Below are positions 3,346-62,439 of a DNA stretch of 64,000 bases, piece by piece (position 1 is the first letter of the stretch; the number at the start of each line of letters is the position of its first letter). The notes under the pieces are model-generated. The model searched no databases, was not told where the DNA came from, and worked only from the letters and a program-made list of their open reading frames with translations. Source of the stretch: Microvirga terrae. GTDB lineage: Bacteria > Pseudomonadota > Alphaproteobacteria > Rhizobiales > Beijerinckiaceae. A program made the position numbers and the translations under genes. The stretch is from assembly GCF_013307435.2 (NCBI RefSeq), contig NZ_CP102845.1, positions 1,550,001 through 1,614,000 of the forward strand, given 5' to 3'.

Positions 3346-4770
3346 CTAGAACATGCGCGGGGGGCGCGGGCGGCGGTTCGAGGCCTGACCGTTCGCATCC
3401 TCCCCGGCATCTTGGCGCTGGGCCCCGATGATGATCGCCGCGCCCTCCTGCACGTCGCCGCGCATGATCTCGGTATAGGCTCCGTCCGTGGCGCCGAGCC
3501 GCACGTGCACGGCCTCGGGCCGGCCGTCCTGGGCGACCCGGTAGATGCGTCCGCCCGTGCCCTCGTCCGGCTGCGTCTGCGCATCGCGGTCGCGTGCACG
3601 CTGCCGACGCGGCTGGCCGTTCGGCTCGCTCGCCGCGACGGCCGCCGGCGGCCGGAAGCGCAGGGCCGCGTTGGGGATGCGCAGCACGTCCTCCCGCTCG
3701 TCGGTGACGATCTGGAGGTTCGCCGTCATGCCCGGCAGGAGCGCCTGATCCAGGTTCCTCACGCCGATGACGGCCGTGTAGGTGACCACGTTCTGCACCG
3801 TCTGGGCGGACAGGCGCACCATCCTGACGCTGCCCTCGAAGGTGCGGTTCGGATAGGCGTTCACCGTGAAGGTCACCTTCTGGCCGTCCTTGATGCGGCC
3901 CACATCGGCTTCGTCGATATTGGCGTAGATGTCGATCTCGCGCAGGTCCTGCGCGATCGTGAAGAGCGTCGGGGCGGACAGGGAGGCCGCGACGGTCTGG
4001 CCGAGCTCGATGTCCCGCTTGACCACGACGCCGTCGACCGGCGACTTGATGTCGGTGCGGGCGAGGTCGATCTCGATGTCCTTGAGCTTCGCCTGCCGCT
4101 GCAGGATGATCGCCTCGGCGGATTTCACCCCCGCCTCGGCCAGGGCGAGATCCGCCCTGAGCCCGTCCGTCTCGGCCCTGTTCGACGCGATCTGCGCGTC
4201 GGCCGAGACGAGGTTCGCCTTCTGGATGTCGACCTGCGTTCCGGCCTGCTCCAGGGCCGTCTGGGTTCCCACCGCCCGGGTGGTCAGCTCCTTCTGCCGG
4301 TCGAGGGTGCGCTGCGCGTCGGCGAGCTGTGCCTGCGTGCGGTCGCGCTGGGCCGCGAGATCGTTCGCCTGCGCCTGCGACCGCTGCAGCGCCGAGCGCG
4401 CCTTGTCGATCTGCGCGCGCTTGGTGTCGAGATCGGCTTTCGCTTGGGCGAGGTCGGCGAGCGCCGCGTCGCGGCGCGACTTGATCTGCTCGGCATAGAG
4501 GCGGGCCACCACCTGGCCTTCCTTCACGGGGGTGTTGTAGTCGGCCAGGATCTCGACCACCTGGCCGGAGAGCTGCGATCCGACCAGAACCGTCGTGACG
4601 GGATTGAGCGTGCCGGTCGCGCGCACGCTCGCCGTGATCGGGCCGCGATCCACCACGCCGAGCCGGTAGGCCTGATCGGACGCGTTGCCGCCCGTAGGCT
4701 TCCACAGCACGAAGCCGGCGGTGCCCGCCACCAGGACGATGCCGATCAACCACAACCAGACGCGACGCAC
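3346..4770 (-). CDS. MacA/HlyD-family periplasmic adaptor subunit
   Basis: 474 residues if translation starts at the GTG at 4770, which has AGAGGG seven bases upstream; an in-frame TTG at 4794 is the alternative. Seen: one N-terminal membrane anchor (WLWLIGIVLVAGTAGFVLW), a biotinyl-lipoyl-like half-motif (VLVGSQLSGQVVEIL), a long alpha-helical hairpin of heptads (about residues 95-235), a second lipoyl half (IKSPVDGVVVKRD), and a beta-barrel domain. This is the RND/MacA-like adaptor that links the inner-membrane MacB-like pump to an outer-membrane channel. Odd points: a low-complexity basic insert near residues 385-415 (Q, R, D rich) and a proline/arginine-rich tail. First gene of the adaptor-ATPase-permease operon. 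Confidence 0.88.
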   Translation of the reverse strand: MRRVWLWLIGIVLVAGTAGFVLWKPTGGNASDQAYRLGVVDRGPITASVRATGTLNPVTTVLVGSQLSGQVVEILADYNTPVKEGQVVARLYAEQIKSRRDAALADLAQAKADLDTKRAQIDKARSALQRSQAQANDLAAQRDRTQAQLADAQRTLDRQKELTTRAVGTQTALEQAGTQVDIQKANLVSADAQIASNRAETDGLRADLALAEAGVKSAEAIILQRQAKLKDIEIDLARTDIKSPVDGVVVKRDIELGQTVAASLSAPTLFTIAQDLREIDIYANIDEADVGRIKDGQKVTFTVNAYPNRTFEGSVRMVRLSAQTVQNVVTYTAVIGVRNLDQALLPGMTANLQIVTDEREDVLRIPNAALRFRPPAAVAASEPNGQPRRQRARDRDAQTQPDEGTGGRIYRVAQDGRPEAVHVRLGATDGAYTEIMRGDVQEGAAIIIGAQRQDAGEDANGQASNRRPRPPRMF

Positions 4771-7908: not shown

Positions 7909-8302
<394 letters not shown>

Positions 8303-8331
8303 CATCTTTCCACAGGCGGAATTTTGCAGGG

Positions 8332-60797: not shown

Positions 60798-60833
60798 AAA
60801 CAAAAGTGGAGGCTTCTGTTGCCAGGTGCCTCC
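60798..60833 (-). terminator. ssrA rho-independent terminator
   Basis: Minus strand: GGAGGC (60833-60828), 14-nt loop, GCCTCC (60813-60808), then ACTTTTGTTT. It ends the tmRNA transcript just before the sspB ribosome site. The long loop and short T-run suggest incomplete termination. Confidence 0.7.
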
Positions 60834-61122
60834 GGACCCCGCCTTACGGTGCTACCCGCAAGGGCTTTGATTCGGCTTTAGGGACCGCTTACGCAGCCAC
60901 TGCAACCGGAGCATAGTTGTCGTTGGCAACTATAGATTCGGCCCGATAACGGCGGAACCATGCCGAGCGAAAGTCCACCCTTTACGCCCTCGTCGATCCT
61001 ATTTCGCCCCCGCCGAAACCCAAGCTGAGCCTAGGCTTTGGTGGAGGCGCCGGGTACCGCCCCCGGGTCCGATGGGTTTATTCCGATAGCCGTTTATCGC
61101 CATAGTCGGTCTCGCGACCGAC
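60798..61122 (-). ncRNA. ssrA: Circularly permuted two-piece tmRNA
   Basis: Read on the minus strand the acceptor piece comes first and ends CGCCTCC-ACCA at 61039. An intervening stretch of about 27 nt follows, then the coding piece begins GGGGGCG at 61011. GGGGGCG pairs with CGCCTCC to make the 7-bp tRNA-like acceptor stem, proving the permutation. The coding piece holds the tag reading frame at 60927-60889: 12 codons giving ANDNYAPVAVAA, then TAA. A hairpin GTCGGTC-GCGA-GACCGAC marks the 5' region of the acceptor piece. tmRNA rescues stalled ribosomes and tags the product for ClpXP. Confidence 0.95.
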
Positions 61123-61128
61123 AACCCC

Positions 61129-61157
61129 AATATAGGTGGCGCGATCCGATTTTGAAA
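61129..61157 (-). promoter_or_regulatory. Probable ssrA promoter
   Basis: Minus strand: TTTCAA (61157-61152), 17 bases, TATATT (61134-61129). The -10 is good and preceded by C; the -35 is weak. Predicted start near 61122. Confidence 0.5.
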
Positions 61158-61168
61158 GAGAGGGAACG

Positions 61169-61284
61169 GCCGAGTCGTCCATGAAAATGTGACAGAGACA
61201 CCGGCGCGGCCGCCTGTTCCCTCGTGGCGTTCACGGGGTTAACCGATTCACAGGAATGGCGAAGTCCCGACTCGGCGGCCGCGC
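61169..61284. repeat. Two competing inverted repeats in the ssrA-thyA gap
   Basis: GCCGAGTCG (61169-61177) is complementary to CGACTCGGC (61268-61276). GCGCGGCCGCC (61204-61214) is complementary to GGCGGCCGCGC (61274-61284). The two right arms overlap by three bases and the order A-B-A'-B' means they cannot form fully at the same time except as a pseudoknot. This looks like a switchable RNA structure or two nested protein sites. Confidence 0.6.
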
Positions 61285-61307
61285 GCTGCTGCCTTATTAT
61301 GGTTAAA

Positions 61308-61492
61308 GCAGAGATGAGACAGGGTGATTTGCTTGCCGGCGACACCCCGTCTCTCCGGCTCTGCTGCGAGAGGTTCATAGGGGTCCAATCCTATGAACTA
61401 ACCCAGATCGTCAGCTTCCAAACCTGACGCTCATATTAGAACGAGGGTGTGAGGCACCAAACCTCGCTGGGTCAGAGGTCCAAACTCTGACC
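61308..61492. ncRNA. Candidate structured RNA: five stem-loops, four with a shared loop motif
   Basis: One large stem (GCAGAG and GAGAC-A-GGGTG at 61308-61326 with CACCC-C-GTCTC and CTCTGC at 61343-61364) is followed by four small hairpins. Stems: GTTCATAGG/CCTATGAAC, CGTCAG/CTGACG, GAGG/CCTC, GGTCAGAG/CTCTGACC. Loops: GGTCCAAT, CTTCCAAAC, CACCAAA, GTCCAAA. The stem sequences differ while the loops keep (T/A)CCAA. On the plus strand TATTAT at 61295-61300 could be a -10, and TTCCTCATTTCT after the last stem a weak terminator. On the minus strand the loops read TTGG(A/T). Which strand is transcribed is not decided. Confidence 0.5.
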
Positions 61493-61644
61493 TTCCTCAT
61501 TTCTACATATCCTGCACCGCTAATTGCTGTCAGACAATGCAGTTGGAGAAAGCTAATTCGTAATCCACTGTGATATCTCTAACGGCGAAAAATCCGACTC
61601 GGACGAGTAATCTCCTTGCCCTATGATCGGGCGAGGAGCACCCC

Positions 61645-62439
61645 ATGCAAGCCTATCTCGATCTCATCCGCCGCATCATGGACGAGGGCGTCCGCAAGGA
61701 CGACCGGACCGGAACCGGGACGATCTCGGTCTTCGGCCACCAGATGCGCTTCGATCTCAGCCAGGGTTTTCCGCTCGTCACCACGAAGAAGCTGCATCTG
61801 CGCTCCATCGTCCACGAACTGCTGTGGTTCCTGAAGGGCGACACCAACATCCGCTATCTCAAGGAGAACGGCGTCTCGATCTGGGATGAATGGGCCGACG
61901 AGAACGGCGATCTCGGCCCCGTCTACGGCAAGCAGTGGCGCTCCTGGGCCAAGCCGGACGGCGGAACCGTCGACCAGATCCGCTGGGTGCTCGACGAGAT
62001 CCGCCGCAATCCCGACAGTCGCCGCCTGATCGTCTCCGCCTGGAACCCGGCGGATCTGGACAAGATGGCGCTCGCACCCTGCCACTGCCTGTTCCAGTTC
62101 TACGTGGCGGAGGGGCGGCTCTCCTGCCAGCTCTACCAGCGTTCGGCGGACGTGTTCCTGGGCGTTCCGTTCAACATCGCGTCCTACGCGCTGCTCACGC
62201 ACATGATGGCGCAGGCCACGGGCCTGCAGCCCGGCGACTTCGTCCATTCCTTCGGGGATACGCATCTCTATCTGAACCATCTGGAGCAGGCCCGCCTCCA
62301 ACTCTCCCGCGAGCCGAGGCCTCTGCCGAAGCTGCGCCTCAATCCCTCGGTGCGCTCGCTCTTCGATTTCGCCTATGATGACATTGCGATCGAGGATTAC
62401 GACCCGCATCCGGCCATCAAGGCGCCCGTCGCGGTCTGA
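61645..62439 (+). CDS. thyA: Thymidylate synthase
   Basis: 264 residues, the standard short ThyA length. Catalytic cysteine C146 in [24 protein letters not shown] for the phosphate arginine, and the ending [14 protein letters not shown]. It makes dTMP from dUMP with methylenetetrahydrofolate, giving dihydrofolate that the DHFR encoded downstream recycles. GAGGAG lies 6 bases before the ATG, with a small hairpin upstream. First gene of thyA-DUF2293-GNAT-folA. Confidence 0.97.

Follow-up and report, generated by a model that had tools for sequence, protein, structure and literature searches.

A probable plus-strand RNA gene with four CCAA-loop hairpins between ssrA and thyA in Microvirga, and its possible reading as a tRNA-Trp anticodon-arm decoy

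Titrating small RNAs (sRNAs) of the CsrB/RsmZ type are trains of hairpins that carry one loop motif. The alpha-r14 sRNAs of alpha-rhizobia present an identical loop motif on differing stems and have three redundant seeds (PMC10746234). Anticodon arms are also imitated by RNA: the E. coli thrS operator includes a mimic of an anticodon arm, bound by the synthetase ThrRS, together with another domain of this kind (PMC9976931). In Salmonella, a nuclease cleaves several tRNAs, tRNA-Trp(CCA) among them, within the anticodon loop, and a competing role for a tRNA-like RNA has been suggested (PMC7790460). None of the papers listed by our literature searches names Microvirga, which is weak evidence that no sRNA has been described from the genus.

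The hairpin block and its locus

The window is the whole stretch of Microvirga terrae DNA that was analyzed (64,000 nucleotides), and coordinates refer to it unless a contig is named. An insertion of roughly 280 bp in the 483-bp ssrA-thyA gap of the window contains the hairpin block. The divergent neighbor on one side is ssrA (alphaproteobacterial tmRNA; 60805..61161, minus strand), called by ARAGORN and matched by Rfam RF01849 with 318 bits. On the other side lies an ORF at 61645..62439 on the plus strand, which we take from general knowledge and from the initial annotation to be thyA, encoding thymidylate synthase; thyA homologues were present in 41 of 41 genomes searched. Elsewhere in the window, positions 7910-8303 hold an RNase P RNA of class A (Rfam RF00010).

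All four hairpins that had been described from the sequence of the window were recovered at 61373-61493 with the loops originally given, both in a hairpin listing and in the alignment. On the plus strand they are H1 (61373..61398; loop GGTCCAAT at 61382-61389), H2 (61406..61432; loop CTTCCAAAC at 61415-61423, with 6 bp adjoining the loop), H3 (61448..61468; loop CACCAAA at 61455-61461), and H4 (61469..61493; loop GTCCAAA at 61478-61484). The feature proved to be larger than the 120-bp block to which the hairpins had been assigned. The predicted RNA has a 5' domain, a long hairpin at 61307..61365 on the plus strand with a common fold and 79-93% pairwise identity in three genomes, and its apical part contains the sequence GCTTGCCGGC (61331-61340), which is invariant in three species. 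Folds also place an outer helix around H3 and H4 (61443..61498, plus strand), in which 61443-61447 pair with 61494-61498. The 3' part of the insertion (61499..61590, plus strand) is less conserved, with 67-73% pairwise identity.

The folding energy of the 136-nt block on the plus strand was -51.4 kcal/mol, compared to a shuffled mean of -35.4 (z -4.1), and 0 of 200 shuffles were as stable; on the minus strand, z was -2.9, and 1 of 200 shuffles was as stable. A z of -4.5 was obtained for 301 nt around the block on the plus strand, and the homologous stretches of Microvirga sp. 3-52 and Microvirga calopogonii gave -4.3 and -7.2, respectively. A greedy, non-overlapping count, which drops H3 (present in the separate hairpin listing), found 437 hairpins of at least 6 bp on the plus strand of the window; CCAA occurs in the loop of 11 of these, and 3 of the 11 lie inside the 120-bp block. 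Dinucleotide shuffling of the 483-bp gap (500 shuffles) produced CCAA-loop hairpins at a mean of 0.02 and a maximum of 1. Single-sequence folds did not form every hairpin: H3 was unformed in the fold of the 136-nt window block and formed in the 301-nt fold, and H1 was unformed in the fold from Microvirga sp. 3-52.

A promoter-like motif, GACTCGG ... TAT-AT, is located at -47 or -48 of thyA in 17 of the 24 genus genomes scanned, with none listed in the other 7. In the window, this copy (GACTCGG ... TATGAT; 61596..61627, plus strand), found in the upstream-region motif scan, lies immediately 5' of thyA. The three genomes that carry the RNA, which are among the 17, have an additional copy at -374 to -376 of thyA, just 5' of the 5' domain, while genomes without the RNA have the single copy before thyA. 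The additional copy in the window (GACTCGG ... TATTAT; 61269..61300) is a putative promoter in plus orientation, and the insertion starts just after it. As its -10-like TATTAT ends at 61300, transcription would begin near 61307, where the 5' helix starts. A sigma-70 consensus scan of the gap reported no promoter. Wobble pairs also weakly favor the plus strand, with G-U at five pair positions on the plus strand and A-C, which would wobble on the minus strand, at three.

A terminator scan 3' of H4 detected no clear terminator; H4 alone was flagged as resembling a terminator in this part, and the other two genomes lack its T-rich tail. Every frame of the element contains at least two stops in each species. 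An approximately 20-residue stretch of one plus frame over H3 and H4 reads alike in the three species, which we put down to conservation of the DNA there. Judged from the sequence, the locus is probably a lineage-restricted, non-coding RNA gene on the plus strand, with a presumed 5' end near 61307 and reaching at least 61498. The initial annotation knew of no named RNA family with this arrangement, and Rfam 15 agrees: no family exceeded its gathering threshold in 61160-61660, the best match being 19.5 bits to the microRNA family MIR169_6 (threshold, 54).

Homologues and distribution

Besides the window genome (G000), BLASTN of the block against 48 genus genomes identified copies in Microvirga sp. 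3-52 (G055; 84%, E 3e-38) and M. calopogonii CCBAU 65841 (G021; 77%, E 4e-21); the other matches listed were 16-39 bases long. A covariance model applied to the same 48 genomes, with up to 71 candidates scored per genome, returned three matches at E ~1e-35 and two more at E 0.06 and 0.55. The latter two were dropped after inspection of their sequences. Neither BLASTN nor the covariance model gave a convincing copy of the block in the remaining 45 of the 48 genomes. In all three carriers the block is flanked by the ssrA region and thyA, where ssrA of G055 and G021 was recognized by its likeness to the window, without a separate Rfam run. An interspersed palindromic repeat of the REP/BIME type was rejected, since BLASTN and the covariance model found one copy in G000.

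In the three-copy alignment, 94% of cells pair; when the partner is shifted by one to three columns, this drops to 31-46%. Both sides change at 5 of 39 base pairs, which was equaled in 1 of 500 shuffles; the covariation score was likewise reached in 1 of 500, while the tally of additional pair types was unremarkable (121 of 500). As only three related sequences with low power are compared, the covariation is indicative support and not proof. Invariant columns make up 27 of 31 in loops, 58 of 78 in stems, and 10 of 21 in linkers, and the RNA domains show pairwise identities of 70-95%, compared to 14-58% for the ssrA-side flank, where gaps account for part of the low value. One pair of H1 is UA, AU, or GC across the three species, and another is an A-C mismatch in two. 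In H4, both sides change at two pairs around a GTCCAAA loop that is invariant in the three genomes, and the H3 loop reads CTCCAAA in M. calopogonii. The homologues in two other Microvirga species support the original proposal of an RNA whose loops are conserved while its stems covary. Conservation of arms and loops in homologous ssrA-thyA gaps, which had been set as its test, was found in both, together with compensatory stem changes.

Conservation across Hyphomicrobiales, where homologues were to be sought, was not found: among the searchable genomes, the RNA is confined to three of one genus. BLASTN of 397 family genomes, with two candidates scored per genome, matched 9 genomes at an E of ≤0.01 and was strong only in the 3 carriers. 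The covariance model matched 8 of 347 family genomes at an E of ≤0.05; the carriers among these were G000 and G055, and G021, possibly not sampled, is not among the matches listed, for which nine candidates were scored per genome. Three of the six non-carrier matches were inspected (L071 to L073), and L074 to L076 were left out. No row of CCAA loops was seen on inspection of L071 (E 1.5e-4) and L073. The third, L072 (genome G336), contains at 1501-1550 a single H4-like hairpin, GGGTCAGGG-GTCCAAA-CTCTGGCCC, directly after another hairpin and upstream of a 227-aa ORF without a Pfam match; as read from the ORFs, its surroundings may be a prophage. Over the GTDB genome collection, the exact pattern occurred in six stretches, two from Microvirga and four unrelated, and the covariance model gave nothing at an E of ≤10 on the latter. 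The same pattern found only G000 among 385 class genomes. A divergent copy could be missed, because the family searches scored few candidates per genome and the pattern searches require exact loops.

A thyA DNA tree was built from 24 of the 48 genus genomes and one row of another family, and its bootstrap is not fully settled; the three carriers do not form one clade in it. G009 pairs with G000 (support, 94/93) and G003 with G021 (98/97), and neither G009 nor G003 has the block. A single insertion, with later losses or exchange between species, is the history we favor, because the site and the downstream promoter copy are common to the carriers; the thyA tree does not decide. In two further genomes, G007 and G017, the native thyA is apparently split, with residues 1-149/150 and 139/144-264 apart (82-97% identity). 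A divergent full-length second thyA (63-65%) is located approximately 0.5-0.8 kb from the first piece of the native gene in both, and this looks like an element that brought its own thyA and integrated within thyA near codon 145.

Possible roles of the repeated loop

A common core, U-C-C-A-A-A, lies in a 7-nt loop in H4, in H2 when the mismatched closing pair is counted, and in H3 in one species. In tRNA-Trp, this sequence occupies anticodon-loop positions 33-38. The tRNA-Trp arm of the window genome reads CCGGT CTCCAAA ACCGG, and its loop is identical to that of H3 in M. calopogonii. Among the 12 loops (four hairpins in three species), CCA is present in 12, U33 in 10, A37 in 11, and A37A38 in 9. 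A 7-nt loop with U33, the anticodon, and a purine at 37 is found for H4 in 3/3 species, for H2 in 3/3 only with the mismatched closing pair, for H3 in 1/3, and for H1, by its loop length, in 0/3. Several features speak against anticodon mimicry: H3 lacks U33 in two species, the H1 loop has 8 nt (6 nt in G021) and no A38, the 7-nt loop of H2 requires the mismatched closing pair, and the RNA has no acceptor-like part. The match to the anticodon loop was noticed post hoc, and we put the chance of such a coincidence at roughly 1 in 50 to 1 in 100.

Sequence comparison supports a plus-strand non-coding RNA gene in the three Microvirga species, and our best explanation of its action, put forward tentatively, is a multivalent tRNA-Trp anticodon-arm decoy. 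The loops would be the working part of the RNA and would bind several copies of one partner. Each would display the anticodon of tRNA-Trp as U33-C34-C35-A36-A37, in a loop of 7 nt or close to that, and with several such loops the RNA would draw off a protein that recognizes the tRNA-Trp anticodon arm. Candidate partners are tryptophanyl-tRNA synthetase, an enzyme that modifies the anticodon loop, or an incoming anticodon nuclease. The thrS operator offers a precedent for a synthetase that binds anticodon-arm mimics (PMC9976931). A resident toxin of the PIN or PrrC type is not supported as the target of such a decoy, because PIN-domain (VapC-type) matches numbered 0 in G000 (2 in G055 and 5 in G021) and AAA_13 (PrrC-type) exceeded the cut-off in 3 of 48 genomes, of which G021 is the sole carrier. 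The more specific proposition, that a free-standing bacterial sRNA is itself a row of tRNA-Trp anticodon-arm mimics and, as a multivalent decoy, titrates a protein which reads that anticodon, we regard as rather unlikely.

The same loops may instead be redundant seeds of a trans-acting sRNA with the alpha-r14/NfeR1 design, which would pair with UUUGG(A) sites in mRNAs and not with the Shine-Dalgarno sequence. This is a doubtful but substantial possibility. The architecture is that of the alpha-r14 sRNAs with their three redundant seeds (PMC10746234), and the stable fold, the promoter-like copy at the start, and loops better conserved than stems are consistent with it. However, the loops share only 4-6 nt, compared to 9 nt in alpha-r14, and each 7-9-nt loop differs outside CCAA. 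We rank the decoy narrowly above seed pairing because the stretch common to the loops is short for base pairing, and because loops of this size fit an anticodon-like arm. Loops that are nearly fixed on changing stems would also fit a multi-site sponge for some other CCAA-loop RNA-binding protein, unrelated to tRNA-Trp, but CsrA as the best-known case was not found, and we consider such a sponge improbable. We know of no other named protein with CCAA-loop recognition. The likeness to CsrA/Rsm titrating RNAs suggested in the initial annotation did not hold up: PF02599 was detected in 0 of 5 Microvirga genomes, including all three carriers, by a search whose control was positive in 3 of 14 known genomes. 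Nor did the GGA-in-loop layout proposed for the minus strand. Three of four minus-strand loops contain GGA in the window, H3 reads GGT in the window and G055 and so lacks GGA in two of three species, and the promoter-like copy is on the plus strand. CsrA titration was rejected, as no CsrA gene was found in these five genomes and the plus-strand loops have no GGA.

Two further explanations were considered. Readthrough from the upstream promoter could produce a structured thyA leader whose hairpins control thyA; the element is on the same strand and adjoins thyA in three genomes, and no clear terminator separates H4 from thyA. We judge this to be very unlikely, as a second promoter-like copy is positioned right at thyA and 45 of 48 genus genomes contain no convincing copy of the block. 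The hairpins could also be DNA palindromes only, for example a mobile or REP-like repeat without RNA function. Patchy presence agrees with this, the nearest rows of two carriers in the thyA tree (24 of 48 genus genomes) being without the block, but the element has a single genomic copy at the same site in three species, its stems covary, and a promoter-like copy stands at one end, which makes this the least credible alternative, with hardly any likelihood.

Hairpins similar to those of the putative decoy were also found in viral contigs. The H2-core pattern matched 41 contigs. In favor of the anticodon reading, the matched stretch of 4 contigs falls within a tRNA-Trp(cca) gene called by ARAGORN, with one identical arm in all; this arm equals the 17-nt H2 core of G055 and G021 and is one base from that of the window. 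The remaining 37 of the 41 matches, which count against it, lie outside called tRNA-Trp genes and are mostly chance- or coding-like. Contig L100 has an H2 core at 1220-1236 (4-bp stem) and, approximately 25 nt on, an 8-bp GTCCAAA hairpin at 1261-1283, and it is the only viral match to the two-hairpin pattern. Its covariance-model score was 17.7 bits, with an E of 0.04 in a set of 73 sources that had mostly been preselected by the same patterns. Its relation to the Microvirga RNA is a lead and not a proven kinship. Plasmid and phage collections contained no match to the element and none to L100. A tRNA-Pro partner was considered and dropped; ARAGORN calls a tRNA-Pro next to the L100 hairpins, but this call is doubtful, as Rfam gave nothing there at an E of ≤1.

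The GTCCAAA pattern with a half-specified stem occurred in nine viral contigs at four distinct sites, two of them with 1-bp stems. L079:10064-10100 and L085:1751-1783 are single long GTCCAAA hairpins with stems of 15 and 13 bp, respectively. As controls, two permuted loops with the same half-specified stem were found in 21 and 8 viral contigs, with stems of at most 8 bp; the contrast, drawn from few sites and two arbitrary controls, is suggestive. None of the 15 contigs from a three-loop viral scan scored with the covariance model at an E of ≤10, and in the one viral contig matching the 5'-domain pattern, such a structure was not visible. A tRNA-like sequence at L102:1860-1926, also viral, reaches 24 bits with RF00005 (threshold, 29), was not called by ARAGORN, and has an H2-type arm, GTCAGCTTCCAAACCTGAC, on a 9-bp stem. 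On viral contig L108, an isolated H2-like hairpin with a T run after it is located at 3499-3521, 15 nt from a phage tRNA-Pro gene in a tRNA cluster. Similar viral hairpins raise the possibility that phages use the same decoy trick.

Comparison with described systems

The locus would add an undescribed structured sRNA gene to the genus Microvirga, and its repeated loop leads to one prediction: changing CCA in all four loops should abolish binding, which would separate a decoy from a set of seeds. If the decoy reading is true, a row of anticodon arms acting in trans would control a synthetase, a tRNA modification enzyme, or an anticodon nuclease. To our knowledge, no trans-acting row of anticodon-arm mimics is known from any described system.

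Like CsrB/RsmZ, the Microvirga RNA is a hairpin train with one loop motif. However, its loops on the favored strand have no GGA, and CsrA was not found in the five genomes searched. With alpha-r14/NfeR1 of Sinorhizobium meliloti (PMC10746234), it shares one loop motif on stems of different sequence. The alpha-r14 loops contain the anti-Shine-Dalgarno motif CCUCCUCCC, whereas the Microvirga loops are UCCAA(A)-like, and CCUCCUCCC is not present in each of them (the window loops being GGTCCAAT, CTTCCAAAC, CACCAAA, and GTCCAAA). As the loop motif differs, the Microvirga RNA is not a member of alpha-r14. Furthermore, alpha-r14 RNAs are described with three hairpins, in contrast to four loops, a 5' domain, and an enclosed hairpin pair. 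The bacterial Y RNA YrlA resembles the proposed decoy in having a tRNA-like domain and in being proposed as a possible competitive inhibitor of the Salmonella nuclease (PMC7790460). It differs in that the imitation is a tRNA-like domain, compared to a row of anticodon arms in the Microvirga RNA, where Rfam gave no match. The thrS operator (PMC9976931) likewise presents a tRNA anticodon loop and has a second anticodon-stem-like domain in the same RNA. It is a cis-acting leader of its own synthetase gene, whereas the Microvirga RNA has ssrA and thyA as its neighbors and a loop that reads Trp.
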